64,000 bases of DNA. Source: Sphingobium sp. GTDB lineage: Bacteria > Pseudomonadota > Alphaproteobacteria > Sphingomonadales > Sphingomonadaceae. The stretch is taken from NCBI GenBank assembly GCA_009360885.1, contig SPEL01000002.1:310001-374000 (forward strand), written 5' to 3'. Positions 7,134 to 32,296 of the stretch are shown here, in pieces (position 1 is the stretch's first letter; each line of letters opens with the position of its first letter). The position numbers and the translations under genes are program-made. The notes under the pieces are model-generated. The model saw nothing but the letters and a program-made list of their open reading frames with translations. It was not told the DNA's origin and did no database searches.

Positions 7134-7209
<76 letters not shown>

Positions 7210-7610: not shown

Positions 7611-7967
7611 GTGGATGATCGACGCGTTTTGAGAGGGATCATCTTTGCCAACTGCACTGCGTTGAGAGAATATAGCCCGACAAAGCAATGGCTGCTGGTC
7701 AACCGAAGATATGATACAGACCGGCTCCGCAACGTCTTACAGGAAAAGAGGCTTACTCCCCTCTCCCGCGCTAGAAATCGCGGACCAGAGCCGTCCAATA
7801 CAGCAAACATCGCCTTAAAAGCCACAACCGCACATAAAGCCATGTTCGACCGATACAAAATTGGCACCGTGTCGCCGCCCGCCATGGTCAATGTCCAGCA
7901 GCTTCTTCTCCGCTATTACCCTCGCCGCAACCATTGGGATCAGATCAGCGCACCCTGTGCTAATTTC
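7611..7967 (+). pseudogene. Remnant of an IS5-type (DDE) transposase, C-terminal part
   Basis: The frame starting at 7611 reads KQWLLVNRRYDTDRLRNVLQ, which matches the LLGDRGYDADWFRxAL block of IS5-family transposases, here with the catalytic GDRGYD changed to VNRRYD. It continues as EKRLTPLSRARNRG, the counterpart of KGIxPCIPxRRNR. Near 7845 the homology moves to another frame, where NWHRVAARHGQCP resembles DWRRVATRYDRCP. The C-terminal end of the family is still readable to about 7965. The element is therefore both frameshifted and mutated at its active site. No intact terminal inverted repeats were found. Its last bases overlap the 3' end of the S41 protease gene on the opposite strand. 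Confidence 0.65.
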
Positions 7968-9270
7968 TAATAATCTCTAACATTGTTTCCAATGCATCCA
8001 TCCCTGAATGATTGAAATGGTCCGGTACAACATAATATTCATGTGCATGGCGACCACGAGCATCCGTGAAATATGCTGGGTCCCAAGTGACCACAACACC
8101 TGTATTAGGAAGATCAAGGAAAAAAAGGGAGCCCTGCCCTCTTGATTTTGAATAATTCCCCCGTGATTGCTCACCGATTATGCATGCAATACCCGCTTGT
8201 TTTGCCAATATTGCAAAAACTTCTGAAGCTGAGCCTGTGCCTTCATCTATCAATATCCAAATTTTCCCCTGAAAAGGGCTTCTTCGCGTGGTAGGAGAAA
8301 AAGTCATCCAGTGATTATAGGCTCCGGTGCCCAAAATATTTGCATCAGCAGAATCCAGATCAGGCAGCATTCCTTTATCAATCATCTCATCAATATGCAT
8401 GCGAGGATATTTTTGATCCGAATAAAAAGTGTCGGTGCAACTCCTGACATGCTCTCCCGCAGCATCATTCGGGAAAAAAACGAAGCCGGTTAATTCCACA
8501 GGATCGCTAATATGGGGCCCAACCAGCATTCTCTCTACGAAAGGTGTATATCCGCCCGGATTGCCCCTGACATCAAAGACAAGATGTTCATAATCGGCAA
8601 TACTATTATAAAAATCGAAAATCCGATCTTCCAGATCATCGTAAAAATCCGGGTCCTCCAGCATGTTCGGGCCCATCATATCTATGCTTAATCTGCCGAC
8701 TTTTCCTTCCAACGGAATATCGGTGACCACCACCGGCAATTTACCTTGAGAAGTTTTCTGGCTTAAAATCGGCTTGTTCAGTTCAGCCTGCTTTATAATT
8801 TCATCTTTATAGCCATCAAATTTGTCAAACCCCATATAGAAAATGACGACAGCAGGCTTGTTCAATATTGCATGGATATAGCTATGGTAAATACTCATCC
8901 CATCTTTTGATGTACGAAGGAAAAATTCGAGGTAAAAATCTTTTGTCAGGGCACCGACGTTACTCTGCATTGAGTACCATGATCGACTCCCTGCTCTTTG
9001 AATTTCAGGCGTGAATATATATTCATTCAGGAGATCATAAAATTCATGTATTTCATAAACCATCTTCTCATTGCATATTTTTAATTTAAGCTTTTCTGCC
9101 TGATCTCTCAAATTAATACCAAATTTTCTGCGAGCATGATTGATCTGAGGAAAGCTCTTTTCCATCTCCTGCATAAGATAGTGCAGATCCTGCAGGAATT
9201 TTTCATTCCCTTCGGCGCGAGCTTTCATTGGAGCCCCCCAATGCCTCTCAGCCACCGCATCACCGTTCAT
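7960..9270 (-). CDS. S41-family (C-terminal processing type) peptidase without signal peptide
   Basis: A 436-residue protein with the S41 serine protease core. The strand before the active site has FDVRGNPGGYTPFVERM (near residue 245), and the nucleophile Ser is in DEGTGSASEVFAILAKQAG (near residue 345). GEQSRGN follows, as in tail-specific proteases. There is no signal peptide and no recognisable PDZ domain; the N-terminal 150 residues are Lys/Glu-rich and predicted helical. The protein therefore appears cytosolic, which is unusual for the family. The ATG overlaps the stop of the preceding PLP-enzyme gene as ATGA, so the two are translationally coupled. It is the last gene of the six-gene operon. 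Its codons are visibly more AT-rich than those of the upstream operon genes, suggesting separate acquisition. Confidence 0.85.
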   Translation of the reverse strand: MNGDAVAERHWGAPMKARAEGNEKFLQDLHYLMQEMEKSFPQINHARRKFGINLRDQAEKLKLKICNEKMVYEIHEFYDLLNEYIFTPEIQRAGSRSWYSMQSNVGALTKDFYLEFFLRTSKDGMSIYHSYIHAILNKPAVVIFYMGFDKFDGYKDEIIKQAELNKPILSQKTSQGKLPVVVTDIPLEGKVGRLSIDMMGPNMLEDPDFYDDLEDRIFDFYNSIADYEHLVFDVRGNPGGYTPFVERMLVGPHISDPVELTGFVFFPNDAAGEHVRSCTDTFYSDQKYPRMHIDEMIDKGMLPDLDSADANILGTGAYNHWMTFSPTTRRSPFQGKIWILIDEGTGSASEVFAILAKQAGIACIIGEQSRGNYSKSRGQGSLFFLDLPNTGVVVTWDPAYFTDARGRHAHEYYVVPDHFNHSGMDALETMLEIIRN

Positions 9271-10373
9271 TGCATCGCCCCATGATGAGCAATCCCAAGA
9301 TCATCAAAGGGCAGTTTTCCGGCGATAAAGCGGGACAGCTTTTCATCCCATGATGCTATATCAATGGCATTTTGCCGATACCAATCTTCGTTATAATAGC
9401 TATGCCCATAGCGCTCTCCACTATCGCATAAGATGGTGACGATCGAGCCGCGCCTGCCTTCCTCTTTCATTCGGCGCGCCAGCGTCACCACCCCGGCAAA
9501 ACTGGTGCCGGTGGAACCACCCACGCGCCGCCCCAGCTTTGCCGCGACATAACGCATGCACGCCAGACTGAAGCCATCAGGCACCTTCACCATCGCGTCT
9601 ATGCAGTGCGGGATAAAACTGGCCTCGGGCGACGGCCTGCCAATGCCCTCTATGCGTGAGCCCTGCAAGGGCGCGGCATCGGCGCTCCACATCCCCCGAT
9701 AGGCATCAAAAAAAGCCGACACTTCAGGGTCCGCACACAAAATACGGGTATCATGCCCACGGTATCGCGCATAGCGGCCCAGCGTCGCCGCCGTTCCACC
9801 GGTTCCGGGGCTGCACACGATCCATGCAGGGACAGGCTCTGGCTCCTGCGCCATCTGCGTAAAAATAGATTGCGCAATATTATTATTCGCGCGCCAATCT
9901 GTCGCCCGTTCGGCATAGGTAAACTGATCCATGAAATGCCCGCCAGTATCCTGAGCGAGCCGCAGCGAAGCCGAATGAAGATCGCAAGCCTTTTTCACCA
10001 GATGACATCGCCCCCCCTGAAATTCTATCGCCGCAATTTTCTCCGGCGACGTGTTCGCGGGGATAACGGCGATAAAAGGCAGGCCCAGTAACCGGGCAAA
10101 ATAGGCTTCTGAAACAGCGGTAGACCCACTGGAAGCCTCAATCACAGTACTGCCGCTATGCAGCCAGCCGTTGGCGAGGCTGTATAGAAATAGCGAACGG
10201 GCAAGGCGATGTTTCAGGCTACCCGTAGGATGAGAGGATTCATCCTTCAGATAAATATCCACTCCTTCAAACTCCGGTATATTCACCGGAATGAGGTGCG
10301 TATCCGCAGAACGATTGAAATCCGCCTCAATCCGTCGGATCGCTGATGCAACCCACATACGCTCCTGTGTCAT
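9267..10373 (-). CDS. PLP-dependent fold-type II enzyme, Cds1-like (cysteine synthase / L-cysteine desulfhydrase family)
   Basis: A 368-residue enzyme of the cysteine synthase superfamily. The Schiff-base lysine is in ESSHPTGSLKHRLARSLF (near residue 54), the substrate loop in EASSGSTAVSEAYFARLLG, and the phosphate-binding loop in CSPGTGGTAATLG. The sequence around the lysine, with SHPTGSLKHR in place of the SxKDR of CysK, and the C-terminal CDSGERYGHSYYNEDWY are typical of Cds1-type proteins. Cds1 cleaves L-cysteine to pyruvate, ammonia and sulfide. Activity on another beta-substituted alanine is possible. The gene starts 4 bases after tldE and overlaps the S41 gene by 4 bases, so it belongs firmly to the operon. 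Confidence 0.85.
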   Translation of the reverse strand: MTQERMWVASAIRRIEADFNRSADTHLIPVNIPEFEGVDIYLKDESSHPTGSLKHRLARSLFLYSLANGWLHSGSTVIEASSGSTAVSEAYFARLLGLPFIAVIPANTSPEKIAAIEFQGGRCHLVKKACDLHSASLRLAQDTGGHFMDQFTYAERATDWRANNNIAQSIFTQMAQEPEPVPAWIVCSPGTGGTAATLGRYARYRGHDTRILCADPEVSAFFDAYRGMWSADAAPLQGSRIEGIGRPSPEASFIPHCIDAMVKVPDGFSLACMRYVAAKLGRRVGGSTGTSFAGVVTLARRMKEEGRRGSIVTILCDSGERYGHSYYNEDWYRQNAIDIASWDEKLSRFIAGKLPFDDLGIAHHGAMQ

Positions 10374-10377
10374 CGTC

Positions 10378-11754
10378 TTAAATTCCCGCTACAGTCATCT
10401 TGTCTAACAAAAGCGCGCCAGTCCTGATCTTGCCCCGCCGATCGTGATCTTTGCTGATAGCAACGATACCCGCAAGCATATCAGGCACCTGAGCAGCGAT
10501 TGTCACCCCTTCAACCGCATGGACAATCTCGCCATGCTCCACCCACATGCCGGTCACGCCGACCGAATAATCGCCCGAAGCGCCATCAAACCCGTGCCCC
10601 ATAATGGATGTAACCACCAACCCACGGTTAAGGCCCGCAATCATCTCTGCCATGCTCTCCGGCCCCTCGCCTGCTACAACCATATTGCTGATACCACCCG
10701 CATTATGCGTGCTCTGCATTCCCAGCCGCCGTGCAGCATAGCTATCCAGCACATAACGCCGGAGCACCCCTTCGCTGATGATCGGCGCATCCTGCCTGAG
10801 CAAGCCATCATCATCATAATGACGGGAACCAGTCCCTTGCCAGATATGCGGTTTTTCGGTGATCGTCACAAAATCAGGCGTCAGCTTTTCTCCTAATCGG
10901 CCAGCCAGAAAACTGCGGCCACTGTAAAGAGCGGGCCCGGAAAGAACATCCAGAACATCATTCCAGAAACGGGCCGCCATTTCCGGCGTGAAAAGCACCG
11001 GGCATGTGCGCGTCGTCAGTGACCGCGCATCAAGCCTGCCTAACGCCAAAGCCGCAGCCTTCGCCCCTAGTGCGGCAGGGGACGCCAGCAAGGCCGGGTC
11101 ACAGGTGACATCATATTCGCCATCCTTTTGCTGCCCGGAGGAATTTTCAGCGATAAAACTGGCCGAGAGCTGGTGCCTCGTCATCGCATGATAGCCGACG
11201 AAACCATTGCTATTCACGCGGACCACCTGTTTCGCCGTAGAAGTGATGCTAGCCTGTGCGCAGCGGCGAATGCGTTCATCAGTCGCCAGCCCGGCAGCCT
11301 CCGCCTCACACGCAATATCAAACATCATGGCGGGGCTGACAGCCCATGGACGCCACAGGCCCAGATCGGGCAAGTCCGCATCTGCTATCTGGCGCTGTTC
11401 AGGTTCCGCCAAGCCACCAAAATCGTCAGGCTGCGTGAAACGGGCGACCGCAATGGCTTTTTCCACTGTCTGGCGGATCGTATCAACAGAGAGGCTGTGG
11501 ACGCTGGCGGTCCCCTTCCGCCCTGCGGCATAGACTGTCACCGCCATATTATTCGTCTGGCTACGGGTCAGGTTTTCAGGCTGGCCATCGCGTACCCCGG
11601 CCTCCGTCCCCTTACCATGGGAAAGGACGATCTCTGCCTCTTCAGCACCCGATTTATGCGCCCATTCCAGCCCGGATAGGCATATAGCCTCCAGCTTTTC
11701 GCGTTCCTGCCCAATGGTTGCGTCTTGTGCAGGTATAATCATCACCTCGTTCAT
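10378..11754 (-). CDS. tldE: TldE/PmbA-type metalloprotease subunit
   Basis: A 458-residue member of the TldD/PmbA (U62) family, the non-catalytic-zinc partner of TldD. Typical segments are the N-terminal EAEIVLSHGKGTEAGVRDGQ, the glycine-rich core and the C-terminal MGHGFDGASGDYSVGVTGMW with VEHGEIVHAVEGVTIA, which are diagnostic of PmbA. It lacks the HExxxH found in TldD. The pair forms a cytosolic heterodimer that degrades unfolded peptides and removes leaders from some ribosomal peptides such as microcin B17. The start at 11754 overlaps the tldD stop as ATGA; longer in-frame starts would run deep into tldD and were rejected. Confidence 0.92.
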   Translation of the reverse strand: MNEVMIIPAQDATIGQEREKLEAICLSGLEWAHKSGAEEAEIVLSHGKGTEAGVRDGQPENLTRSQTNNMAVTVYAAGRKGTASVHSLSVDTIRQTVEKAIAVARFTQPDDFGGLAEPEQRQIADADLPDLGLWRPWAVSPAMMFDIACEAEAAGLATDERIRRCAQASITSTAKQVVRVNSNGFVGYHAMTRHQLSASFIAENSSGQQKDGEYDVTCDPALLASPAALGAKAAALALGRLDARSLTTRTCPVLFTPEMAARFWNDVLDVLSGPALYSGRSFLAGRLGEKLTPDFVTITEKPHIWQGTGSRHYDDDGLLRQDAPIISEGVLRRYVLDSYAARRLGMQSTHNAGGISNMVVAGEGPESMAEMIAGLNRGLVVTSIMGHGFDGASGDYSVGVTGMWVEHGEIVHAVEGVTIAAQVPDMLAGIVAISKDHDRRGKIRTGALLLDKMTVAGI

Positions 11755-13193
11755 GCCTTCGTCCCCCCCACGATCATCGAATCTACCCGCAATGTCGGCT
11801 GCCCCACCCCGACAGGCACGCTCTGGCCGGATTTTCCGCAAAGCGCAGTACCGGAATCAAGCGCCAGATCATTCCCGATCATCGACACATGGGTCAGCAC
11901 TTCTTCGCCCGCCCCGGTCAGCGTCGCGCCGGAAATAGGGGCGGTTATCTTGCCATCCTCGATCAGATAGGCCTCGTTCGCGCTGAACACGAATTTTCCG
12001 CTGGTGGTATCCACCTGCCCGCCTGAAAAATAGACCGCATATATGCCGTTTTTCACCGAAGAAATAATCTCTTCGGGCGAGCTTTCACCAGCCAGCATAT
12101 AGGTGTTCGTCATACGGGGCATCGGCAGATGACGGTAAGATTCCCGTCTGCCATTTCCGGTTGGTGCCCGCCCCATCAGGCGCGCACTCATACGGTCCAG
12201 CATCATGCCCGTCAGCACCCCATTTTCGATAAGCGGCGTGCATTGTGTTTCCACGCCTTCATCATCAACCGAAAGGCTACCTCTCTTATCTGGCAATGTT
12301 CCATTATCGACAATGTTAACGCCGGGAGCAGCAACCTGCGTCCCTTCGCGGGAGGCAAAAACAGATGTCTGTTTGCGGATAAAATCCCCCTCCAGACCAT
12401 GCCCCACCGCTTCATGCAGCAGCACACCGGGCCAACCAGACCCGACCACCACATCCATAATCCCGGCAGGGGCAGGTACCGCCTCAAGGTTGGTAAGCGC
12501 CCGATTAGCGGCTTCCTTCGCCTTGGCCTCCGCCATGCCGGACGCGATAAAATCGCTCAGTTTCATGCGCCCACCACCGCCAGCGCTACCGTTGGTGCGC
12601 CGCCCATTACTCTCCGCACCGACACTAACCGACAGACGCACCAAGGGACGGTAATCCGCCACCAGCGTGCCATCTGATGCAGCAATCAGCACCAGCTCAG
12701 ACATGACACGCAGCGTTGCGGTCACATTCCTGACACGCGGATCACACGCCCGCGCTGTGGCATCAATCACTTCCAGCAGGCGAATTTTTGCTTTCTCATC
12801 GAGCTCCGACACAGGGTCTGCTGCTGCATAGACCCGCCGCACATCACGGCCAGCCAGTGGCGCAGTCAGGCCGCTCCCCATCAGGCCAGAGATAGAACGG
12901 GCATTATCCGCCGCGTCTGCCAGATCATCAAAACCAAAACCATCGCAATAGGCGAAGCCGGTTTTCTCTCCGCTTACTGCGCGTAGCCCCGCCCCGCTTT
13001 CGACCGAATAGCTACCGCTGCGAACAAGGCCATTTTCGATCGTCCAGCCCTCAGACCGGCAATCCTGCAAATAGACATCGGCATAGTCGATATCCGGCCC
13101 GGACATCCGCCCCAGCAGTTTTTCCAACCGGCTGGTGTCAAGGGCATGAGGGGAAAGCAGGCTGTCAGCAGCCAGTTGCAAATAATCAGTCAT
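11751..13193 (-). CDS. tldD: TldD-type zinc metalloprotease subunit
   Basis: A 480-residue TldD. The zinc site is HEAVGHGLEGDF (HExxxH, near residue 262), and the third ligand cysteine is in SGTALCGKSGQSVPVG near residue 452, matching the family. The start at 13193 (MTDYLQLAADSLLSPHAL) fits the normal N-terminus and has a GAGGA upstream; the open frame extends back to 13307 through a hairpin and was not used. tldE follows with a 4-base overlap. TldD/TldE normally stand alone or apart in genomes, so finding them as a coupled pair inside a receptor/transporter operon is informative about their job here. Confidence 0.94.
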   Translation of the reverse strand: MTDYLQLAADSLLSPHALDTSRLEKLLGRMSGPDIDYADVYLQDCRSEGWTIENGLVRSGSYSVESGAGLRAVSGEKTGFAYCDGFGFDDLADAADNARSISGLMGSGLTAPLAGRDVRRVYAAADPVSELDEKAKIRLLEVIDATARACDPRVRNVTATLRVMSELVLIAASDGTLVADYRPLVRLSVSVGAESNGRRTNGSAGGGGRMKLSDFIASGMAEAKAKEAANRALTNLEAVPAPAGIMDVVVGSGWPGVLLHEAVGHGLEGDFIRKQTSVFASREGTQVAAPGVNIVDNGTLPDKRGSLSVDDEGVETQCTPLIENGVLTGMMLDRMSARLMGRAPTGNGRRESYRHLPMPRMTNTYMLAGESSPEEIISSVKNGIYAVYFSGGQVDTTSGKFVFSANEAYLIEDGKITAPISGATLTGAGEEVLTHVSMIGNDLALDSGTALCGKSGQSVPVGVGQPTLRVDSMIVGGTKA

Positions 13194-13271
13194 GAAGGAA
13201 ATATCCTCAGCAAAATATCGCATGAAGCGGCCGCCCCCGCCACAAAGGCACATAAAGGACGAAGCGGCGAA

Positions 13272-13308
13272 GATGCCGGGCGGCGCGGAACAGCTACCGC
13301 CCGGCATC
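13272..13308 (-). terminator. Strong hairpin between the TonB receptor gene and tldD
   Basis: Perfect 12-bp GC-rich stem (13272-13283 with 13297-13308) and a 13-base loop, starting 26 bases after the receptor stop. No T run follows. It probably acts as an attenuator or RNA 3' stabiliser that lets the receptor be made in excess over tldD/tldE. Confidence 0.6.
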
Positions 13309-13333
13309 AGATATGGCCCTGTTCAGGCAGAGA

Positions 13334-15988
13334 TCAGAAAGATTTCGTCAACTCCAGGCTGAAGCCGCGCCCATACACATTATAAAGCGCCGCATTATAA
13401 TAAGGCTGGGAATCCCAGTTTTTGGAAGGCGGCATGCGGTTGAACAGGTTGTTCACGGTGCCATTAACGGCAAAGCCGCTGCCGATATCATAGCTGGCGC
13501 TCAGGTTGAACAAAGTCCACGCCTTATCCCACCCCGGCATCCCGTAGGATGTTGAAGCAGGGCCGCCGGTCAGCAAGGCATAATTGGGCGACTTTCCATA
13601 ACGCACCGCATAAACGGTCGTGCTAAACGGCCCGCTGTCCAGCGACAGGCTGGTGTTCATGCTATCCTTGAACAAACCGCCTGCTGATGGGTTTTTCAGC
13701 TGATCCACCACCGGAGAAACGGAATCATTCTGCGATTTAAATTCCAATACGCGGTTGTAATTAATATCGAACCGGAACTGGCCAATACCCTGTACCGGAA
13801 ACTGATATTGCCCGGCAAGGATAAGCGATTGCGTCTTCTTGGTGGATACGTTGAAGTAGCCGCGTGTTACCCCCGTAACCCGGCCTGTAACGCCATCGCG
13901 CGTTATAAGGGAAAGCGCCTGAGAGCATGAACCCAGATAAACCGCTTCACCCCCCTGACGGCAGGCAGCCTCATCAAACAATATATTCGCGAGAGTAAGC
14001 GCCCGCACCTCATTTTTAATGTTAATATCGATGAAATCGGCACTAAAACGCAATGCTGGCGTCGGCGTCCATACCGCGCCAAGCGTCTTTGATTTCGCTG
14101 TCACTGGCTTAAGCGCGAGATTACCAGTCGATTCATTCGGCATGATATAACGGCAGCTATTGCTTGTCCGTGAAACACCCATCTGATCGCACATATAAAG
14201 GTCATAGCTATTGCTGTTTGTGCTGCTTTTACCCAGAAACAAATAGGACATGTCCGGCACACGGAACGCCGTACCCATTCCCGCCCGCAGCAGCAATGTC
14301 GGCATGGGGCGGATTTCCAGACCAGCCTTCCATGTAGCACGATCGACCGATTTCCCGGCATAGCTATAATCGTCATAGCGCGCCGCACCGCTTATGCTCA
14401 CCCACGGAAGAAGCGGTAACGACACTTCTGTAGCAACGCCGCTATGGTCGCGCTTGCCACGGGACGCCAATTGCGCGCCATCAAAATAAAGACCGGCCTG
14501 AAAATCTGCGGAGGGGGTATCTTTCCAGCTTTCATTACCGGCCTCGGCCAGCAATGCAAACGCTGCTGAACCGCCGGGCAGATCGAAAAGAGAGCTATTA
14601 TAAACCTTGCCGGTAAGCTGCTGGACCCGGCTGCTGGCATTACGCCGTCTGGTGTCTGAGAAACCCGCATATTCTTCGGGGGTCAAAGGCACGAACACCT
14701 GTGAAATATCGCTATATCTATCTGCCAGATAAGCGGTCATTTCCGTCTTCACCGGGTAAAATGTCTTCTGCTTCAGCTTATAAAAGGACCGTGAACCGGA
14801 AACGTCATAATTCCAGTTTCCTGTAATCGCCCCCTTCAAGCCAAGGGCAATATCATATTGCGTGCCATAATCCCGTTTGGCCGAAGTTTTCCAACTGCCC
14901 ATTTCTTCCGGGGCAATTTCACGCGACACTAAATAGGAACGCCCGGAATTAGTATCTGTGAAGTTTTCCCACACAAATACCGGGCCAAAATTGGAGATGG
15001 TACGGGAATATGTACCGGAAAGATCCATATACAGCTCATGCCCATCGGCAACGGGCTGAGACAGGCTGGCATAACCGCTATAATTGCGGCGTTCGCTATC
15101 ATAAGTAGCGACAGAGGAACGGGTGTAATCCGAACCGCAATACCGCATCGCGCCATCGACTTTATAAGTCATCGACCCACCAAACAGGTCTGACATCTGC
15201 GCACAGCCTGCCACACCCGGGTCATAATAATTGCTGCCGGATATCCGGGCAAAAGCATCATCATCATAAGGGGAATAGGCCGTCCTATCCCGGTCTATGC
15301 CCAAAATGGCCTTGCGATTGCTAAATTCAAACGCATAGCTAAGGGAACCATCCGAAGGCAGCTTCAAACCACCAACAGCCTGCACCCGGATGCTTTCCCC
15401 GCCCCCTTCATCATAGCCCGAACCACGGACAGACAAAGCCAGCTTATCAATATTCTTTTTAAGGATGATGTTGACAACACCCGCCACGGCATCCGCCCCA
15501 TAAGTGGCCGATTGCGTACCCGGCAATATTTCAATCCGTTCCACCATTGCGGTCGGAATCGTTGAAAGGTTGGCGAAATTGCCGCCGTCCCCGACATTGT
15601 TATTGAGCGGGAAATTGGCGGTAGAACGTCCGTTTATCAAAACCTTGGTATAGCTCGCCCCCAAGCCAAACAAGTTTATCATCTTGACGTTCTGCATATT
15701 GCCGGTGCCCGGAGCAGAATCGCGCATCGCACCGGTAACAATAGCCTGACCGCGTAAGGCGTCAAAAACCTCGCCAAACCCCTTTTTCTGCATCTCTTCG
15801 CTGGTGATGACGATAACCGGCGATGCGGTGTCCTTTCCCGTGCCCGGAAGCAATGACCCCGTGACGACGACCGTCTCATCCTCTTTGACAGGATCAGCCG
15901 CCGGATCAGCAAGAGCCAATACGGGAAAAGATATAAAGGCCCCGGCAAGCATGAGGCCGGATAGATAGCGTTTGCGGTTAACCCTCAT
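13334..15988 (-). CDS. TonB-dependent outer-membrane receptor of the TldD/E operon
   Basis: An 884-residue receptor. A signal peptide (RYLSGLMLAGAFISFPVLAL) ends at ALADPAADP and is followed by the TonB box DETVVVTG. The plug domain has SEEMQKKGFGEVFDALRGQ, then VLINGRSTANF and MVERIEILPGTQSATYGADA. The long barrel ends in FSLELTKSF, with a terminal Phe as expected. It belongs to the large-plug type seen in sphingomonads and Xanthomonas for oligosaccharides or peptides; the substrate cannot be read from sequence. AAGGGGG lies before the start. It is 34 bases downstream of the ABC transporter gene and upstream of tldD, implying that it imports the compound processed by those proteins. Confidence 0.93.
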   Translation of the reverse strand: MRVNRKRYLSGLMLAGAFISFPVLALADPAADPVKEDETVVVTGSLLPGTGKDTASPVIVITSEEMQKKGFGEVFDALRGQAIVTGAMRDSAPGTGNMQNVKMINLFGLGASYTKVLINGRSTANFPLNNNVGDGGNFANLSTIPTAMVERIEILPGTQSATYGADAVAGVVNIILKKNIDKLALSVRGSGYDEGGGESIRVQAVGGLKLPSDGSLSYAFEFSNRKAILGIDRDRTAYSPYDDDAFARISGSNYYDPGVAGCAQMSDLFGGSMTYKVDGAMRYCGSDYTRSSVATYDSERRNYSGYASLSQPVADGHELYMDLSGTYSRTISNFGPVFVWENFTDTNSGRSYLVSREIAPEEMGSWKTSAKRDYGTQYDIALGLKGAITGNWNYDVSGSRSFYKLKQKTFYPVKTEMTAYLADRYSDISQVFVPLTPEEYAGFSDTRRRNASSRVQQLTGKVYNSSLFDLPGGSAAFALLAEAGNESWKDTPSADFQAGLYFDGAQLASRGKRDHSGVATEVSLPLLPWVSISGAARYDDYSYAGKSVDRATWKAGLEIRPMPTLLLRAGMGTAFRVPDMSYLFLGKSSTNSNSYDLYMCDQMGVSRTSNSCRYIMPNESTGNLALKPVTAKSKTLGAVWTPTPALRFSADFIDINIKNEVRALTLANILFDEAACRQGGEAVYLGSCSQALSLITRDGVTGRVTGVTRGYFNVSTKKTQSLILAGQYQFPVQGIGQFRFDINYNRVLEFKSQNDSVSPVVDQLKNPSAGGLFKDSMNTSLSLDSGPFSTTVYAVRYGKSPNYALLTGGPASTSYGMPGWDKAWTLFNLSASYDIGSGFAVNGTVNNLFNRMPPSKNWDSQPYYNAALYNVYGRGFSLELTKSF

Positions 15989-16022
15989 TGTTTCAAACCC
16001 CCTTGTAGCAATGTGACAGTGC

Positions 16023-17837
16023 TTAGTTTGAAGCCATCGGCGTCATTTTTGACCGATCCGAAGACATATCTTTCCCTGCGCCCACCGTTTGATCCGGCGC
16101 CTGCATGGAACAGGAAGAAATTCTCAATATTTCGTCATGAAGAGCGATCACCGAACTGCGATGCGCGACACTGACGATAGTCAAATCCGGCTGACGTTCG
16201 CGCAACCGGCGGTACAATACCTCTTCCGCATCCTGATCGAGCGCGGACGTGGTCTCATCCAGAAAAACCAGACCAGGCTGGTGTAAAAATATCCGGGCGA
16301 ATGCCAGTCGCTGCTGCTCGCCGGGGGACAGGCATTTCTGCCATGCAGCGACATCATGCAAACGACTGCTAAACTTCGAGAGGCGCGCCGCCTCCAGCGC
16401 CTCCCGGCATTGCTCATCGGAAAAATCATGGCCCAGCGCAGGGTATACAAGTGCCGCCTTCAGCATACCGGTTGGCACATAGGGACGCTGCGGAATGAAC
16501 ATGATGGGGCAATCCGGCAGCTCAATCCTGCCCCGCGCGTCTGACCACAGCCCCGCCAGCGCAAGCAGCAATGTCGATTTACCACAGCCCGAAGGCCCGC
16601 AGATGACATTAGATGTCCCCGGTGCGATAGCCAGAGAAACAGGTTCCGTCAGCACTTCACGCCCCGGCCCGGTCAGCACCAGTTGCGATGTGCGCAAATG
16701 CTTATCTGTACTGGTGACGATCTCCAGCCCCTGACAGACCCCACCATCCGCAGCATTGGCATTGGCTGCGTCTTTGCCTTGTAATAGCAGATCAAATTCG
16801 CTGATACGTCGGCTGGTCGCCCGTAATTCCGCGAGTTCGCGATAATTAACGACAAACCACGACAGGCCGATACGTATTTGCAGGCAGGCCTGCACCATCT
16901 GGGTCAGATCCCCCAGCGTCATATTCCCGCTGAAATATCCGCCAGTTGCAACCAGATAGGGGATCACCTGACCAAATTGGTTGACGCTATCCACCCCAAG
17001 CATCACGCGCTTGGTATCGCCTACCAGTTTGCGCCAATTTTGCTGCACTTGCGAAAAAGCCGTGTTCAGCCGGGCTGTTTCCGCCTGTTCACCGGCATAA
17101 AGCGCCACTGGCTCGGCATTTTCACGGATACGGACGAGATCAAAACGATAATCTGCTTCATATTTCTGCTGGTCATAGCGCGACCGGTTGAGCGGCTTAC
17201 CCACCCATTCCACAATAGCGCTGCCGCCAAGCACAAAGGCGAACATCACCCATACCGCCAGCCCCGGAATATGCCATGAACTGCCGCCAATGTCGAAGCT
17301 AAGGTTACGGGAAAGCCCCCACAACACCACGCTCAGCGTGAAAATCGTGCCCAGCAGGCGATAGACCTCAAAGCCATATTCCAGCACTTTTTCGGTATAA
17401 AGCGCGAGATCCTGCCCAATACGCTGGTCCGGGTTATCCAGCTTGCCGGATCGTTCAATCCGGTAATAGGTCTTGTTTTCCAGCCAGCGAGACAGAAAGC
17501 CCTCGTTCAACCAGACCCGCCAGCGCATTTGCAGCATCATGCGGAACCAGATGGCGAACGTATCAAAGAGAACCGAAATCAGGCTCAGGCCAGCGACAAA
17601 GAATATCTCCTGCCAGAAGGCATCAAGGTTACGCAGCCCGATGGCGTCATATAACCGCTTGTTCCACAATGAAAATTGCAGCGTACACCAGACAGAGCCG
17701 GATTTAAGAGCGATGATCGTCGCCAGCAACAGCCAGGCGCGATATTTATCTGATGACACCCAATAGCCACCGAGCAACCGCAAAGCCGCCCTCATTGACG
17801 GCGTCGATACAGACGCCGCCTGCCCCCGCTCTGTCAT
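16023..17837 (-). CDS. SbmA/BacA-type ABC transporter (fused permease and ATPase)
   Basis: A 604-residue half-transporter with an SbmA/BacA-like membrane domain (about residues 20-340) joined to an ATPase domain. The membrane part has the typical WNKRLYDAIGLRNLDAFW and WRVWLNEGFLSRWLENKTYY segments and NPDQRIGQDL, as in YddA and Rv1819c. The ATPase has Walker A GPSGCGKSTLLLALAGLW, signature SPGEQQRLAFARIFL and Walker B LVFLDETTSALD. Members of this family move peptides (bleomycin, microcins, defensin-like peptides) or cobalamin into the cytosol. It is first in the operon, just ahead of the TonB receptor, and would carry the same ligand across the inner membrane. A hairpin separates it from copZ. 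Confidence 0.9.
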   Translation of the reverse strand: MTERGQAASVSTPSMRAALRLLGGYWVSSDKYRAWLLLATIIALKSGSVWCTLQFSLWNKRLYDAIGLRNLDAFWQEIFFVAGLSLISVLFDTFAIWFRMMLQMRWRVWLNEGFLSRWLENKTYYRIERSGKLDNPDQRIGQDLALYTEKVLEYGFEVYRLLGTIFTLSVVLWGLSRNLSFDIGGSSWHIPGLAVWVMFAFVLGGSAIVEWVGKPLNRSRYDQQKYEADYRFDLVRIRENAEPVALYAGEQAETARLNTAFSQVQQNWRKLVGDTKRVMLGVDSVNQFGQVIPYLVATGGYFSGNMTLGDLTQMVQACLQIRIGLSWFVVNYRELAELRATSRRISEFDLLLQGKDAANANAADGGVCQGLEIVTSTDKHLRTSQLVLTGPGREVLTEPVSLAIAPGTSNVICGPSGCGKSTLLLALAGLWSDARGRIELPDCPIMFIPQRPYVPTGMLKAALVYPALGHDFSDEQCREALEAARLSKFSSRLHDVAAWQKCLSPGEQQRLAFARIFLHQPGLVFLDETTSALDQDAEEVLYRRLRERQPDLTIVSVAHRSSVIALHDEILRISSCSMQAPDQTVGAGKDMSSDRSKMTPMASN

Positions 17838-17884
17838 TTCTAATCCCCGGTTAATTAAGAAGCGTTCGGCCTTTGCCGGTCGGG

Positions 17885-17923
17885 GGCGCCCTCTTGTCTC
17901 AGAACAAGATGTGAGCGGGCGCC
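17885..17923 (-). terminator. Double-stem hairpin after copZ
   Basis: Outer stem GGCGCCC/GGGCGCC (17885-17891 with 17917-17923) encloses a second stem, CTTGT/ACAAG. It lies about 20 bases after the copZ stop and before the ABC transporter gene, and is the likely boundary between the copper transcript and the peptide operon. Confidence 0.55.
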
Positions 17924-17942
17924 TCTCCGGTTATGTTACGCT

Positions 17943-18155
17943 TCAGGCTGCAACAACGGTAAAGCCTGCGTCCTGAATGATAGTTTCAATGCCGCTCTGG
18001 CCAATTTGGGCATCTTCAAAATCGACAGAGACCTGCTTGGTTTCCAGCACGATGTCGGCGGACGTAACACCATCAGCGGCCTCCAGCACGCGCTTCAGAC
18101 GGCTGGAACAGCCTCCGCACGTCATGCCATCGACGGTCAATTGCACTGCACTCAT
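17943..18155 (-). CDS. copZ: CopZ-like copper chaperone (HMA domain)
   Basis: A 70-residue single heavy-metal-associated domain with the metal site GMTCGGCSSRLKRVLE (GMTCxxC). It ends in AGFTVVAA, the usual length and end for CopZ. It carries Cu(I) in the cytosol to the P-type ATPase. GGAGG lies a few bases before the start. It follows copA by 31 bases on the same strand and is probably cotranscribed with it. Confidence 0.9.
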   Translation of the reverse strand: MSAVQLTVDGMTCGGCSSRLKRVLEAADGVTSADIVLETKQVSVDFEDAQIGQSGIETIIQDAGFTVVAA

Positions 18156-18186: not shown

Positions 18187-20616
18187 TCACCGCGGTTTCC
18201 AGCGGTTGAGAAGAAGAGAATTACTGACCACAGAGATGGAACTCATCGCCATCGCTGCGCCGGCAATAACCGGGTTCAGCAAACCAAAAGCAGCCAGCGG
18301 TATGCCCAGCACATTGTAGATGAAGGCAAAGAACAGATTCTGACGGATCTTGCTGAGCGTCGCACGAGAGAGATCAACAGCCGTCGGCACCCCGCGCAGA
18401 TCATTCTTCACCAGCACCACATCAGCAACGTCAATCGCCACATCAGACCCCGCGCCGATAGCGAAGGAAACATCGGCCTGTGCCAGCGCAGGGGCATCAT
18501 TAATGCCATCCCCCGCCATGCCCACGACATTACCTTCACCCTGAAGGCTTTTTACTTCCTCAGCCTTGTTCTGGGGCAAGACTTCGGCGGCATAATGTTC
18601 AATGCCTGCCTGCCGGGCGATGGCTGCGGCGGTGTGCTTATTGTCGCCCGTCAGCATCACAACATCGACACCTGACTTGCGCAACCTGTTCACAGCTTCC
18701 AGGGATGTGTCACGCAACTGATCGGCAATAGCGATGAAACCGGGCACCTTGCCTTCAACCGAAAGGCCGACCACTGTCTTGCCTTCCGCCTGCACCGCTT
18801 CGACACGGGCGGACAATTCATCAGACACAGCCACACCCATTTCACGGAACCATGAAGGCGAACCGAGGGAGAGCTTCTTACCGAGCAGAACGCCCTGCAC
18901 ACCTTTGCCCGGCACCGTATCGAAATCCTCAATATCTTCGATAGTGACGGAGCCTTCGCTCGCTTTCTTCAGGATTGCGCGGGCCAGAGGATGCTCAGAT
19001 CCTCGCTCCAGCGCAGCCGCCATGCCCAGCAATTCGGCCTCGCTGCATCCGTCGGCGGTCAAAATATCGGTAACCTCTGGCTTGCCCTGCGTCAGCGTGC
19101 CGGTTTTATCGACCACCAGCGTGGAAAGAGCGCGCGCCCGTTCCAGCACTTCCGCATTACGGATAAGCACGCCATGTTTTGCGCCCAGCCCGGTGCCCAC
19201 CATGATGGCGGTCGGCGTCGCCAGCCCTAGCGAGCAAGGGCAAGCAATGACCAGAACGGCAACCGCATTAACCAGCGCAGTCTGAAAATCGGACGTAACA
19301 AGCCATGTGCCGATAAGCGTTACTACTGCAATACCCACCACTACAGGAACGAAGATGCCCGCAATCTTATCAACAAACTGCTGAATAGGCGGCTTGGAAC
19401 CCTGCGCTTCATCCACCATGCGGATGATCTGCGCCAGCATAGTATCAGCGCCCACTCCGGTTGCCTTTACCCGCAGCATACCATTCTGGTTGACGGTCGC
19501 AGCGAACACCTTCGCCCCGGCTTCCTTGCTCACCGGCAGGCTTTCACCAGAAAGCATCGCTTCATCAACACTGGAACGGCCAGAGATAACTTCTCCATCA
19601 ACCGGAATGCTTTCCCCTGCCGCAACGATGAAGATGTCCCCGACCAGCAACGTCCCAGCGTCCACCTCGACAATCTCTCCGTCACGCTCAATCTTCGCCG
19701 TCTTAGGCTTCAGCTTCAGCAGCGACCGGATGGCAGAAGAGGTTTTGCGTTTGGCGTTCGCTTCCAGCAGGCGCCCCAGCAAAATCAGCGTGATGATGGA
19801 TGCCGATGCCTCAAAATAGACGTGCAATTCGATCATATCGAAAATGGTGACGACCGCACTGTAGAGATACGCCATGCTGGTCCCCAGCACGACCAGCACA
19901 TCCATATTCGCTGTGCCAGACCGCAAAGATTTAAATGCGGCCTTGTAAAAACGCGCACCAATCCAGAATTGCACCGGCGTTGCCAGCGCAAATTGTATCC
20001 AGCGAGGAATGAGTTCAACATGGTGCCCTTGCACCATATGATCGATCTGGCTAAAATCGAACATCACAAACATCTGGGCAAAAAGCGGCAAAGTCAGCAG
20101 TAATGATGCCAAGAACATCATTAGTTCCTTGCGCCATTTATCCTGATCCCGCTTTTCGCGCGCAGCGACTTCGTCAGCCGATAAGTCGCGTGCTTCAGTC
20201 GCGCCGAAACCTGCTTTGGCGATTTTTTGCGTAATGCCCGCCACATCAATAACGCCGGGAATATATTCCACCCGCGCCTTAGCCGAAGCGAAATTCACAC
20301 CCCCATTCACCACGCCTTCCGTGCGGGAGAGGACGCCCTCAATCCCCACAGCGCAGGCAGCGCAACTCATCCCCGTAATATCAAAAACTGCGGTTTCAGG
20401 CGGCACTTCGAACCCGGCCTTGGTTATCGCATCGACCAATTGTTCAGGCTGCACCTGCCCGGCATCATATTTCACATGAGCGCGTTCCGAGGCAAAATTA
20501 ACCTGAGCGTCCACGCCCGGAAGCCGGTTGAGAACCTTCTCAATGGTTGTTGCGCAGGCAGCACAAGTCATTCCCCGCAAAGGCAGGTTAACGGCCGAAG
20601 CCACAGTCTGAGACAT
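18187..20616 (-). CDS. copA: Copper-exporting P1B-type ATPase
   Basis: An 809-residue Cu(I) exporter. Two N-terminal HMA domains carry [10 protein letters not shown] (near residue 16) and [10 protein letters not shown] (near residue 83). The membrane metal site is [10 protein letters not shown], the phosphorylated Asp is in [13 protein letters not shown], and the hinge is [14 protein letters not shown]. Eight membrane helices are expected, and the last ones carry [12 protein letters not shown] and [15 protein letters not shown], typical of copper-specific pumps. cueR lies just upstream and copZ just downstream on the same strand. It moves Cu(I) from the cytosol to the periplasm, where the multicopper oxidase on the divergent transcript can act on it. 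Confidence 0.96.
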
Positions 20617-20634: not shown

Positions 20635-21135
20635 TCAGCTTTTCATATGAGAGCCGCCACAACAGGATGACGACGATGTTTCCAAATGGCTGGCCTGCTC
20701 TTTCCCTTCCTCCCCATGCAGGGCGGATAAAATGGGACAGCATCCCGGATCACCATGACCCGGGCAGGCTTCTGCCAGATGCGTGAGCGCATCACGCATC
20801 CGTGTCATCTCCGCTATACGGAAATCTAACTCACGAATGCGTTCATGCGCCCGTGCCTTGACGCCCTGAACGCCGTTTTCACGATCATTCTCAAGCGCCA
20901 GCAGTTCCTTAATTTCCCCCAACGTAAAGCCGAGGTCCTTAGCACGGCGAATGAAACGGACCTGTTCAACCGCCTTTGCATCATATTGACGATAACCCGA
21001 CGCCTTACGATGGGGGCTAGATAGCAACCCTTCCCGTTCATAATAGCGGATCGTATCGACCGCGACCCCCGCCTGCCTGGCAAGCACGCCAATTGCGAAA
21101 TATCGCGGGCTGGAAGGTTCATAGCGAATCGTCAT
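20635..21135 (-). CDS. cueR: MerR-family copper-responsive regulator (CueR/HmrR type)
   Basis: A 166-residue regulator. The helix-turn-helix (FAIGVLARQAGVAVDTIRYY, then EREGLLSS) is followed by YRQYDAKAVEQVRFIRRAKD, LGFTLGEIKELL and a dimer helix. The C-terminal metal loop CPGHGDPGCCPI carries the two cysteines expected for monovalent copper sensors. The tail after residue 145 is Cys/His/Ser-rich (SSSSCCGGSHMKS), which is not standard and may also bind metal. It lies 18 bases upstream of copA. The promoter just upstream has the elongated 19-bp spacer of MerR-regulated promoters and ends almost at the ATG, so the message may be leaderless. Confidence 0.9.
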   Translation of the reverse strand: MTIRYEPSSPRYFAIGVLARQAGVAVDTIRYYEREGLLSSPHRKASGYRQYDAKAVEQVRFIRRAKDLGFTLGEIKELLALENDRENGVQGVKARAHERIRELDFRIAEMTRMRDALTHLAEACPGHGDPGCCPILSALHGEEGKEQASHLETSSSSCCGGSHMKS

Positions 21136-21142
21136 AAATGCA

Positions 21143-21173
21143 TGTTAACCTTTGGAGTATGATCCAGAGTCAA
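21143..21173 (-). promoter_or_regulatory. MerR-type promoter/operator of cueR-copA-copZ
   Basis: On the minus strand TTGACT (21168-21173) and TTAACA (21143-21148) are 19 bases apart, the over-long spacing of MerR-family promoters. Between them is a near-palindrome with arms CTTTGG and CCAGAG. The half-site ACTCTGGA also occurs in the dyad at 21299-21316. Confidence 0.65.
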
Positions 21174-22051: not shown

Positions 22052-23908
22052 ATGTCTTCTTTTCCATCTGCCTCAGACGGTGGTGGGCTGCTGAGCGGCC
22101 ACGCCTTGTTGCATAGCAACGGCCCGGAAGGGCCAGCCTTCCTCCATGGCAACAGCCCAAAAGGGCCAGCCTTGTCCCGGCGACATTTTGTGCAGGGGTT
22201 TGCCCTGTGTACCGGAGTGTGTACCGGACTTTCCGCCGGGCTCGCCCCACGCGGCGCTTCGGCGGCGTCTCCATTGCCATCAACCGGCAACACCCCGCCT
22301 ATCCTGACCGGCAAGGATTTTAACCTGTCGATCGGCACAAGCGCGGTCAACTTCACCGGGCGCACCCGTCAGGCCATTACCGTCAACAATAGCCTTCCCG
22401 CGCCGATATTGCGCTGGAAGGAAGGGGATACCGTCACCCTTAAGGTGTCCAGCCATTTGCCGGAGCATGTGCAAACCTCGCTCCACTGGCATGGCATAGT
22501 GCTGCCCGCCAATATGGATGGCGTGCCGGGGATGAGCTTTAACGGCATTTATCCCGGCGAATCCTATCTTTATCGCTTCCATGTGCGGCAGGCGGGCACC
22601 TATTGGTATCACAGCCATTCCTTGCATCAGGAACAGGCCGGGCTTTATGGCGCGATTATCATCGATCCGCAGGAGCCAGCGCCCTATTCCTATGACAGGG
22701 AACATGTTATCCTGTTTTCTGACTGGACAGATCTCGACCCGGCCGCGCTCTTTCGGCGGCTCAAGAAAATGCCCGCATATGACAATATGTATAAGCGCAC
22801 GCTGGGCGATTTCATCCGCGACGCCCGCGATTACGGCCTTAGTGCAGCGATAGAGGACCGCAAAATGTGGGCCGGTATGCGAATGACGCCAACCGACCTA
22901 TCCGACGTTAACGGCCTGACCTACACTTATCTTATGAACGGCCATACTCCCGGTGCTAGCTGGCAGGGCGAATTTCGGCATGGTGAAAAAGTGCTGCTAC
23001 GCCTCATCAACGCATCCAACATGACCTATTTTGATTTCCGCATACCGGGGCTCAAAATGACGGTGGTGGCGGCGGACGGGCAATATGTGCATCCGGTCAC
23101 CGTCGATGAACTGCGCATTTGCGTAGCGGAAACCTATGACGTGATCGTCGAACCCGCCGGGCAGAATGCATTCACCCTGTTCGCGCAGGATATGGGCCGC
23201 ACCGGCTATGCCGCTGGTACGCTTTGCACCCGTGCCGGACTGAAGGCGGAAATACCGGCGCTCGACCCGCGCCCGCTGCTGTCCATGAAGGATATGGGCA
23301 TGGACCATAGCGGCCATGGCAAGCATGATCCTTATGCTGGTTTCAAGGCCGAGCGGCATGATGCCCCGACACTAAGCGGGCCGGTCAGCCATGCCCGCAC
23401 CGAAAAGGGCAGCACCTATGTCGATATGCAGGCGATGGTCGCCCAGCCCCGGCTGGATGACCCCGGCGTGGGCCTGCGCGACCGTGAGCATAAGGTGCTG
23501 ACCTATGCCGATCTCCACAGCCTTGGCGGAGACCCGGATGGACGAGATCCCGGACGCACCATAGAACTCCACCTGACGGGCAATATGGAACGCTTTGGCT
23601 GGGCCTTTGATGGCGTGCCGTTCATGGATTCCAAACCGCTGAAGTTCAATTATGGCGAACGGCTTCGTGTCGTGCTGGTCAATGATACGATGATGCATCA
23701 CCCTGTCCATCTGCATGGCATGTGGAGCGACCTTGAAAATGAGGACGGCGCATTTCAGGTACGCAAGCATACCGTTGATATCGCGCCGGGATCGCGCCGT
23801 TCCTACCGTGTCACCGCCGATGCGCTGGGTCGCTGGGCCTATCATTGCCATCTGCTCTATCACATGGATGGCGGCATGATGCGCGAAGTAAGAGTGGAGG
23901 AAGCATGA
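22052..23908 (+). CDS. copA: CopA-type multicopper oxidase (copper resistance)
   Basis: A 618-residue periplasmic Cu(I) oxidase of the CopA/PcoA family. A twin-arginine signal (SRRHFVQGFALCTG, then an alanine-rich cleavage region) begins near residue 42. Copper sites are visible as LHWHGIVLPANMDGVPG, YWYHSHSLHQEQAGLYG, HPVHLHGMW and the C-terminal YHCHLLYHMDGGMMREV. A Met/His region near residues 410-430 (KDMGMDHSGHGKHD) is typical of the family. Oddly, about 40 residues precede the twin-arginine motif and include an 11-residue tandem repeat. AGGA precedes the start. copB overlaps the stop. Confidence 0.94.
   Translation: MSSFPSASDGGGLLSGHALLHSNGPEGPAFLHGNSPKGPALSRRHFVQGFALCTGVCTGLSAGLAPRGASAASPLPSTGNTPPILTGKDFNLSIGTSAVNFTGRTRQAITVNNSLPAPILRWKEGDTVTLKVSSHLPEHVQTSLHWHGIVLPANMDGVPGMSFNGIYPGESYLYRFHVRQAGTYWYHSHSLHQEQAGLYGAIIIDPQEPAPYSYDREHVILFSDWTDLDPAALFRRLKKMPAYDNMYKRTLGDFIRDARDYGLSAAIEDRKMWAGMRMTPTDLSDVNGLTYTYLMNGHTPGASWQGEFRHGEKVLLRLINASNMTYFDFRIPGLKMTVVAADGQYVHPVTVDELRICVAETYDVIVEPAGQNAFTLFAQDMGRTGYAAGTLCTRAGLKAEIPALDPRPLLSMKDMGMDHSGHGKHDPYAGFKAERHDAPTLSGPVSHARTEKGSTYVDMQAMVAQPRLDDPGVGLRDREHKVLTYADLHSLGGDPDGRDPGRTIELHLTGNMERFGWAFDGVPFMDSKPLKFNYGERLRVVLVNDTMMHHPVHLHGMWSDLENEDGAFQVRKHTVDIAPGSRRSYRVTADALGRWAYHCHLLYHMDGGMMREVRVEEA
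22109..22174 (+). repeat. Tandem 33-bp in-frame duplication in the multicopper oxidase leader
   Basis: Two adjacent 33-base copies (22109-22141 and 22142-22174) encode LHSNGPEGPAF and LHGNSPKGPAL, directly before the twin-arginine motif. Both copies carry GGGCCAGCCTT. It looks like a recent slippage or duplication event. Confidence 0.75.
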
Positions 23909-24858
23909 TGAAAAAGCTTCTTTTGCTCGGAGGGATTTGCAGTATGCTGCCCGCTACGGCCTTTGCCCAGCATCAGGGCCATGAAATGCACGATATGCAC
24001 GGCATGAAAAACATGGACAGCATGGCAGAGAAAGACGCTACCGAAGGCGATAAGACCAGCAAGGGCGATACCCCCCATGCTGGTCATGCCATGCCTGCCC
24101 CGCAGGCGGCCATAGCTAAGGCGCCCCCTGCCCCCGCACCAACGGAGCCGAAAACACCCATTCCGGTGCTGACAGATGCCGACAGGGCCGCCGCCTTCCC
24201 TCAGCTTTCCGCCAGCCACAGCCATGACATGCCGATGGTCACGATGGTCAATATCGACAGGCTGGAAGGTTGGGATGACGATGGTAAACTCGGCCTCAAC
24301 TGGGAACTAAACTCCTGGACAGGCGGTGACATCAACCGGCTCTGGATTCGTTCTTCGGGTGAACGCGAGGGCGGCAAAACCAGCGGCAATGTTGAACTAT
24401 TATATGGCCGTGCCAAGGGTGCATGGTGGGATATTGTAGGCGGTATCCGGCAGGATTTCGGCCCGGCCGATCAGGACCAGACATGGGCCGCCTTGGGCAT
24501 ACAGGGCCTCGCCCCCTATATGTTTGAGCTGTCCGCCACCGCCTATGTCAGCACCACCGGCCAGTTCATGGCAAAAGCAGAGGCCGAATATGACCTGCTG
24601 CTCACCAACCGCCTTATCCTTCAGCCGGTGGTGGAAATGACGGCCTATGGCAAAAATGATGGCGCACGCGGGCAAGGCTCTGGCCTGTCGTCGTTCGAAA
24701 CAGGGGCGCGGCTACGCTATCGCATCACCCGCAGCATCGCCCCTTATGTTGGTTTTTCCTACGAGCGCGCGCTCGGTAACAGCGCCGATTATCGCCATCT
24801 GGAAGGCCATAATGTTTCTGATAGCCGGATCGTTTTCGGCATCAATAGCTGGTTCTGA
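23905..24858 (+). CDS. copB: Copper resistance protein B (outer membrane)
   Basis: A 317-residue CopB. A signal peptide (MMKKLLLLGGICSMLPATAF) ends at AFAQ. A Met/His-rich metal-binding stretch (HQGHEMHDMHGMKNMDSM) and an acidic/Pro-rich linker follow. From about residue 100 the conserved CopB barrel begins: LSASHSHDMPMVTMVNIDRL, LNWELNSWTG, WDIVGGIRQDF and a terminal FGINSWF. The start at 23905 overlaps the copA stop as ATGA and has GGAGG just before it. CopB is an outer-membrane protein acting with CopA in copper sequestration or export. It is translationally coupled to the oxidase. Confidence 0.93.
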   Translation: MMKKLLLLGGICSMLPATAFAQHQGHEMHDMHGMKNMDSMAEKDATEGDKTSKGDTPHAGHAMPAPQAAIAKAPPAPAPTEPKTPIPVLTDADRAAAFPQLSASHSHDMPMVTMVNIDRLEGWDDDGKLGLNWELNSWTGGDINRLWIRSSGEREGGKTSGNVELLYGRAKGAWWDIVGGIRQDFGPADQDQTWAALGIQGLAPYMFELSATAYVSTTGQFMAKAEAEYDLLLTNRLILQPVVEMTAYGKNDGARGQGSGLSSFETGARLRYRITRSIAPYVGFSYERALGNSADYRHLEGHNVSDSRIVFGINSWF

Positions 24859-28472: not shown

Positions 28473-28489
28473 TACCACATGCTTTCTCC

Positions 28490-30055: not shown

Positions 30056-30090
30056 GATCTTTCCTTCACTCTTCCCCTGAGGCGGAGGTA

Positions 30091-32223: not shown

Positions 32224-32253
32224 TTTTCCCCCATGAACCGAATAAATAGCAAC

Positions 32254-32288: not shown

Positions 32289-32296
32289 GACAGTAA

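Follow-up and report, generated by a model that had tools for sequence, protein, structure and literature searches.

Several described systems overlap in part with the subject of this analysis, a six-gene operon on the minus strand of a 64,000-nt stretch of Sphingobium sp. DNA (contig SPEL01000002.1, positions 310,001 to 374,000; the window, in what follows, is this whole stretch). TonB receptors are importers, and TldD/TldE cuts unstructured peptides. BclA/Rv1819c-type proteins, which like the transporter of the window join an ABC_membrane_2 and an ABC_tran domain in one chain, import peptides or other hydrophilic solutes; the examples known to us stand without a TonB receptor, peptidases or a cysteine lyase. 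CueR-CopA-CopZ operons share with the window the MerR-CopA-CopZ gene order and a MerR-type promoter, and we know of none that extends into TonB receptor, ATP-binding cassette (ABC) transporter, peptidase and desulfhydrase genes. Methanobactin uptake provides, as an idea, the TonB-dependent import of a thiol copper peptide. The microcins of Escherichia coli use SbmA, the TonB pathway and TldD/E, all of them unlinked host genes; the window, in contrast, presents one operon that includes a cysteine enzyme and in which no precursor was found. SbmA and TonB are named for microcin 25 in the title of a reference. The enterobacterial CyuP-CyuA/CdsH system is alike in desulfurating cysteine, and CdsH belongs to the same pyridoxal phosphate (PLP) enzyme family as the window protein: in Salmonella it turns cysteine into pyruvate, sulfide and ammonia (available part of PMC7767077). 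CyuP is an importer of free cysteine, and the available part of PMC9040844 mentions neither an outer-membrane receptor nor peptidases. A 2025 survey of BclA/Rv1819c-type transporters (PMC12003926) contains, in the portion at hand, neither TldD nor copper, and TonB once, in a reference title. Among the papers that searches of the open-licence PMC library listed (subscription papers lay outside it), none describes, by title or abstract opening, the set found in the window, in keeping with an earlier sequence-only reading of this DNA that had known of none. The combination, together with the protein u described below, is apparently new; the parts are of known kinds.

Gene families were assigned by Pfam and NCBIfam profile scores. 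In order of transcription the six genes encode:

16023..17837, minus strand: ABC_membrane_2 transporter with fused ATPase, BclA/Rv1819c-like, 604 residues (ABC_membrane_2 166.9 bits, ABC_tran 67.0 bits)
13334..15988, minus strand: TonB-dependent receptor, 884 residues (Pfam Plug and barrel)
11751..13307, minus strand: TldD-like metallopeptidase, 518 residues from the first ATG, shorter with a later ATG
10378..11754, minus strand: TldE/PmbA-like protein, 458 residues, three PmbA_TldD domains
9267..10373, minus strand: Cds1/CdsH-like PLP-dependent enzyme, 368 residues (PALP 169.7 bits)
7960..9270, minus strand: S41-family peptidase, 436 residues (Pfam Peptidase_S41 56.4 bits, 3.5e-15)

These open reading frames (ORFs) form one tight run, just as the sequence-only reading had described it. 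The ABC and TonB genes are 34 bases apart, tldD and tldE overlap by 4 bases, 4 bases separate tldE from the PLP gene, and the PLP and S41 genes overlap by 4 bases, all as previously given; the TonB-TldD gap, previously put at 140 bases, has that length only with the later TldD ATG at 13193, and is otherwise 26 bases. Nor does the run begin at 17837, where the earlier account had started it: genes for a MerR-family regulator, CopA and a CopZ-like protein precede the ABC gene on the same strand.

The best PDB match of the transporter is 6tqe (2.7e-69), which we take to be Rv1819c, and its ABC_tran domain occupies residues 399-531. By its domains the protein is of the BclA/Rv1819c type; its identity as SbmA proper, after the SbmA-type transporter of the sequence-only reading, is excluded by the nucleotide-binding domain that it carries and that SbmA lacks. 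Among the loci compared its closest relatives are in L188 (42% identical) and L073 (39%; loci are designated L and genomes G). Pfam reports no STN domain in the TonB receptor, and only its plug region finds PDB matches (Cir, FepA, BtuB and others). TldD scores 607.9 bits against NF008006, above the cut-off of 513, and has three PmbA_TldD domains and an HExxxH zinc motif (HEAVGH); TldE reaches 341.5 bits against NF008268, short of the cut-off of 438. The PLP enzyme, at 512.2 bits against NF052478 (Cds1), is under the curated cut-off of 600, yet this is by far its best family, and K54 and the G190-T191-G192-G193-T194 phosphate loop are invariant across 14 aligned sequences. The S41 peptidase has a GSASE nucleophile motif, no signal peptide that is apparent by eye, and only weak matches in the PDB, to retinol-binding protein 3 and CtpB. 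At E<=1e-12 it has no relatives in 395 other genomes, so that its own genome is the sole carrier among 396; it was dropped as a part common to such operons.

Judged by their content, the six genes probably serve to take up a cysteine-containing peptide and to break it down in the cytosol. The receptor would take the peptide through the outer membrane, the ABC_membrane_2/ATPase protein would move it on into the cytosol, and TldD/TldE and the S41 protease would cleave it. The Cds1/CdsH-like enzyme would then split the freed cysteine to pyruvate, ammonia and sulfide, preventing a build-up of cysteine. Substrate, direction of transport and enzyme activities are predictions; what was observed is which genes are present and in what order, how they recur in two differently built operons of this genome and in other genomes, the conserved MerR promoter, and the clade of the PLP enzyme. 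The sequence-only reading had offered, as one of two possibilities, a single pathway that imports a peptide carrying cysteine or a thioether and breaks it down; for a cysteine-carrying peptide this gains support from the same families being joined twice here and again elsewhere, with thioredoxin and thioredoxin reductase (TrxB) in relatives. For the explanation as a whole, with a copper-linked version in the window, the chances are about even.

The genome (G000; 2.93 Mb, 79.6% complete) contains two ABC_membrane_2 proteins in all (matches to the window ABC protein, P0006, at E<=1e-90 are likewise two), two strong Cds1-like genes (the next match is at 1e-26), and six TldD/E-type matches, comprising two pairs and, standing singly, a TldD and a TldE. 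Both ABC genes, both PLP genes and both TldD/TldE pairs are confined to two operons, that of the window and a sister operon, L007, and each of these also has a TonB receptor. In a crude random-placement model that treats genes as independent points, the PLP-ABC pairing arises with a probability of ~9e-5 (168 of 2,000,000 draws), falling to ~9e-9 when the TldD/E pairs are added. Adjacency of a TonB receptor alone means little, because the 2.93 Mb of the genome include 66 TonB plug rows, or roughly one every 44 kb. The sister operon reads LysR-TonB-ABC-Trx-u-HExxH-TldE-TldD-PLP (Trx, thioredoxin; LysR and HExxH were read from the sequence by eye), as against ABC-TonB-TldD-TldE in the window; the two TldD proteins are 50% identical and the two TldE proteins 30%. 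That the same four families should have been joined twice in one genome, as it appears from different sources, is taken as the strongest sign of shared function, the window operon having been put together separately from its sister.

Related operons recur elsewhere. (Genes in the compared loci were called by codon usage: ORF limits are approximate, and small genes can be missed.) L042 is a full operon, TonB-ABC-TldE-TldD-Trx-u-M3-PLP, where M3 is a peptidase; Sphingomonas parapaucimobilis plasmid NZ_CP155749.1 has TonB-ABC-TldE-TldD-Trx-u-TrxB-M3-PLP, and L170 repeats that plasmid order but for one short additional gene ahead of PLP. In Acidovorax Leaf160 and Paracidovorax wautersii the order is TonB-ABC-Trx-(u-S9 fusion)-PLP. 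The peptidase partner, in other words, varies among loci (the M3 gene of L172 is called as two pieces). Operons closely related to the sister operon occur on named Sphingomonas plasmids; five further named plasmid PLP loci comprise one full operon (L130) and four that are not (L131, L132, L134 and L135), with M3 beside PLP in L132 and L134, and two plasmid ABC loci read TonB-ABC-Trx-u (L133) and TonB-ABC only (L136). Plasmid genes annotated cdsH encode proteins 56-57% identical to the window PLP enzyme (P0002). The listed features around the plasmid PLP relatives H3, H9, H12 and H14 include neither copper genes nor a peptide operon (a fifth relative, H1, has no annotation), and the Azospirillum matches H31 and H36 are without the other operon parts. 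Within the genus, strong PLP matches occur in 8 of 36 other genomes (9 of 37 with this one), G004 having fragments only and G031 three; the resulting 10 loci, two of which reach a contig end (L040 and L046), have an M3 peptidase in 6 cases, thioredoxin in 4, TldD/E in 3 and a full ABC gene in 2. The presence of thioredoxin and thioredoxin reductase in relatives fits a substrate with disulfides or thiols: in the sister operon and its relatives a dedicated thioredoxin, in some with its reductase, probably reduces disulfides first, and to judge from gene content these Trx/u operons appear to be a recurring set for importing, reducing, digesting and desulfurating.

The recurring set, plasmid-borne too, offers a testable route from the cell exterior to sulfide; the fate of metallophores and cysteine-rich peptides after uptake is, to our knowledge, poorly known. 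The ABC gene alone was discarded as a marker: at E<=1e-90 it has matches in 64 of 398 phylum genomes, and 29 of their loci (L140-L168), each with only ~1.5 kb of flank, are without other parts, with the sole exception of a second ABC fragment in L162. Three minor observations attach to these loci. An Lrp-type regulator lies near the PLP gene in L048, L132 and L197, a further likeness to the CyuP-CyuA/CdsH system. L130 has, at 13.6-14.6 kb, a thioredoxin reductase gene 79% identical to that of L048, where the PLSDB table shows no gene. The three Cds1-like PLP loci of G031 (L040, L041 and L042) have unlike neighbour sets.

The protein u of the sister operon is rare: six genomes have it in the family set of 347 and six in the phylum set of 396, its own genome being counted in both. 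TonB, ABC and thioredoxin genes adjoin it in all six family genomes, PLP in five, TldD in four and M3 in three. In the stretches read of the six phylum-sample genomes, TonB is found in five, ABC and thioredoxin in four each, TldD in three and PLP in two; in G230 TonB alone adjoins the u match, and in G446, whose match is the weakest (6e-9), none of the parts does. Fusions of u to an S9 peptidase occur in L069 and L106 and, by length and N-terminus, in L189, L191 and L192; fusions of thioredoxin to u occur in L177 and L178, beside ExbB-, ExbD-, ECF sigma factor- and FecR-looking genes. Four of five separate copies scanned have no match in Pfam, and the fifth only a chance-level one below the cut-off; nothing is found in the PDB at E<=1, nor in PADLOC, against which one copy was scanned. 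An AlphaFold model from two sequences is all-helical, with a mean pLDDT of 49.5, too low for use. Protein u probably couples thioredoxin to the peptidase, and would, if so, be a new part of that kind.

The genes that precede the ABC gene, and those that diverge from them, are concerned with copper:

17881..17929, minus strand: intercistronic hairpin in the CopZ-ABC spacer (fold z -3.77, no T-run, one copy in the genome)
17943-18155, minus strand: CopZ-like copper chaperone, 70 residues (Pfam HMA 53.5 bits; 61% identical to L073, 65% to L053)
18187-20616, minus strand: CopA-type P1B ATPase, 809 residues (E1-E2_ATPase and HMA; 71-72% to L053 and L073)
20635-21135, minus strand: MerR-family regulator (56-61% to L053, L073 and L113)
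21142..21173, minus strand: MerR-type promoter, TTGACT-20 nt-TAACAT with CTGGA-N6-TCCA
22052..23908, plus strand: multicopper oxidase (MCO), divergent, three Cu-oxidase domains
23845..24858, plus strand: CopB (Pfam CopB 253 bits)

The gaps are 18 bases between MerR and CopA, 31 between CopA and CopZ, and 105 between CopZ and ABC. The strong hairpin in the last of these makes a single transcript uncertain. MerR, P1B ATPase and HMA chaperone in line behind a MerR-type promoter constitute the CueR-CopA-CopZ layout, and the same promoter layout lies 5' of MerR in L053, L073 and L113. By its motifs the ATPase is presumably of the copper type, and we take the regulator to be CueR-like from its cysteine pattern, CPGHGDPGCCPI; the metal that it senses would be copper, and the peptide genes would be co-regulated with the copper genes. 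At the strict threshold of E<=1e-250 this genome is the only one of 71 in the genus to match CopA. A search of plasmids for the window stretch gave no copy of it, and only a 145-base match in the P-type ATPase.

Copper genes also accompany relatives of the PLP enzyme. The window PLP enzyme falls inside a Lysobacteraceae clade (Xanthomonas, Stenotrophomonas, Luteimonas), and well-supported branches set it apart from the enzymes in operons of its own family; the tree, from a quick search, has 165 rows with many loci present twice, which inflates its shuffle counts, and only the broad placement is used. This placement, the copper genes in the run and the thioredoxin-bearing sister operon are points absent from the sequence-only reading. 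Among 80 PLP loci, the best out of at least 576, surveyed with flanks of up to 10 kb, some shorter, an MCO gene is near in 28, CopB in 26, and MerR with P1B CopA in three; many of the 28 are near relatives (Xanthomonas) and do not amount to 28 independent events. In L053, CopB-MCO diverges from MerR-CopA-CopZ-PLP; in L113, MerR-CopA-CopZ precedes PLP by ~460 bases; in L073, MCO diverges from MerR-TonB-ABC-CopA-CopZ-PLP-M3. In L047, a PLP locus with no operon, MCO is ~7 kb away. Two further observations were made in this survey: a large TonB receptor stands closely behind PLP in L090, L104, L123, L127 and L129 (three titled Luteimonas), and L119, titled Bacillus subtilis SK7B5, has a Stenotrophomonas-like PLP gene and is probably contamination.

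The position of the window operon behind MerR-CopA-CopZ suggests that its peptide may carry copper bound to thiols. In this version the peptide may arrive already loaded, and its digestion would release Cu(I), to be sensed by MerR and exported by CopZ and CopA; the copper link, if it holds, would tie peptide catabolism to copper handling. A number of observations weigh against this proposal, or against the operon reading at large. The MerR operator, CTGGA-N6-TCCAG, resembles what we take to be zinc-type (ZntR) boxes, and a copper-activated importer of copper is odd logic. None of the copper genes sought is present at 51 of the 80 surveyed PLP loci, or in the stretches read of the Trx/u operons. 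Among 198 genomes searched in its family, the L073-type ABC occurs in six, and the five other loci, read over 10-20 kb, have neither copper genes nor a Cds1-like PLP gene; L188, the nearest TonB-ABC pair, is also without a recognised peptidase. The window TldE is 28-32% identical to nine other TldEs and 28% to the canonical one, and the window TldD is 45-53% identical to the TldDs of other operons and 48% to the canonical one; neither protein is clearly closer to its counterparts in the operons. Thioredoxin and u, present in L007, are absent from the listed ORFs of the window. Finally, the scattering of the genes among relatives, by which the sequence-only reading would have stood refuted, is seen in part: 6 of the 10 genus PLP loci have neither ABC nor TldD/E in the stretch read. 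The operator of zinc type and the five further loci with an L073-type ABC make a copper-loaded peptide a doubtful substrate for the window operon. A stricter form of the proposal, copper-responsive import of a whole copper-thiolate peptide (a chalkophore or the like) that is then dismantled, with CopZ-CopA removing the copper, is unlikely; if true, it would make the window operon one member of a wider TonB-ABC-thioredoxin-peptidase-desulfhydrase class for disulfide or thiol peptides.

The copper genes admit another explanation: the desulfhydrase might belong to the copper island and defend against copper through sulfide that binds the metal, with TonB, ABC and peptidases as accessory suppliers of cysteine from peptides. 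The MCO genes near PLP are what such a defence would lead one to expect, as is L053, where PLP directly follows MerR-CopA-CopZ and no peptide genes were detected. The close Xanthomonas relationship of many of the MCO loci counts on the other side, as does L007, which has the same four families and, in 18 kb, none of the copper genes sought. The literature points both ways: in the parts available, sulfur/cysteine metabolism rises under copper in strains of Pseudoxanthomonas (PMC10667631) and Cupriavidus (PMC7563307), but sulfide production in the former fell with copper. The available part of PMC10667631 places copZ, copA, cueR, copL and copB at genes 3041-3046 of that strain and does not mention a desulfhydrase there. 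Taken together, these points leave defence by sulfide an improbable account of the operon.

It is quite improbable that the operon serves to tolerate cysteine-rich antimicrobial peptides made by plants or competitors, or to feed on them, a BclA-like importer bringing them into the cytosol to be reduced and digested. BclA is linked to the cysteine-rich NCR peptides of plants; the BclA systems known to us, however, are without a TonB receptor, peptides of defensin size are large for such receptors, and the copper genes are left unexplained. Thioredoxin, its reductase and several peptidases would suit disulfide peptides, some carriers are plant-derived by their strain names, and survival in the face of antimicrobial peptides requires SbmA/BacA/BclA transporters (available part of PMC12003926).

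A chance neighbourhood, in which a TonB-ABC-TldD/E insertion has landed beside a copper island, is very unlikely. The window TldE and TonB receptor do lack close relatives in the other operons compared, and TonB plug rows abound in this genome, but 4-base overlaps, gaps of 4-34 bases and the return of these families in the sister operon, with its different build, argue against chance. Maturation of a ribosomal peptide with its precursor elsewhere, the other alternative of the sequence-only reading, in which TldD/E would strip the leader and the ABC protein export the product, finds a parallel in the maturation of microcin B17 by TldD/E but is extremely improbable, since Rv1819c/BclA-type proteins import, the peptidase partner varies between loci, and in a comparison across 18 loci of 827 short ORFs lying outside called genes (ORFs overlapping called genes were left out) the only clusters present in more than two loci are thioredoxin and its shadow frames, the others being CopZ and pairwise matches, and no YcaO appears among the window genes scanned with Pfam, a search aimed at YcaO not having been made.

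The flanks of the run have features of their own. A tRNA-Thr gene (7134-7209, plus strand) adjoins the end of the operon and may mark the edge of an island; direct repeats tied to it were not seen. At 7611-7970 on the plus strand lies an ORF that by eye resembles a decayed insertion sequence transposase fragment and has no Pfam match. At 26916-34795, on the minus strand, two S10 carboxypeptidase-like proteins, an S9 prolyl oligopeptidase and a TonB receptor are encoded in one run, likely a peptide-use cluster.

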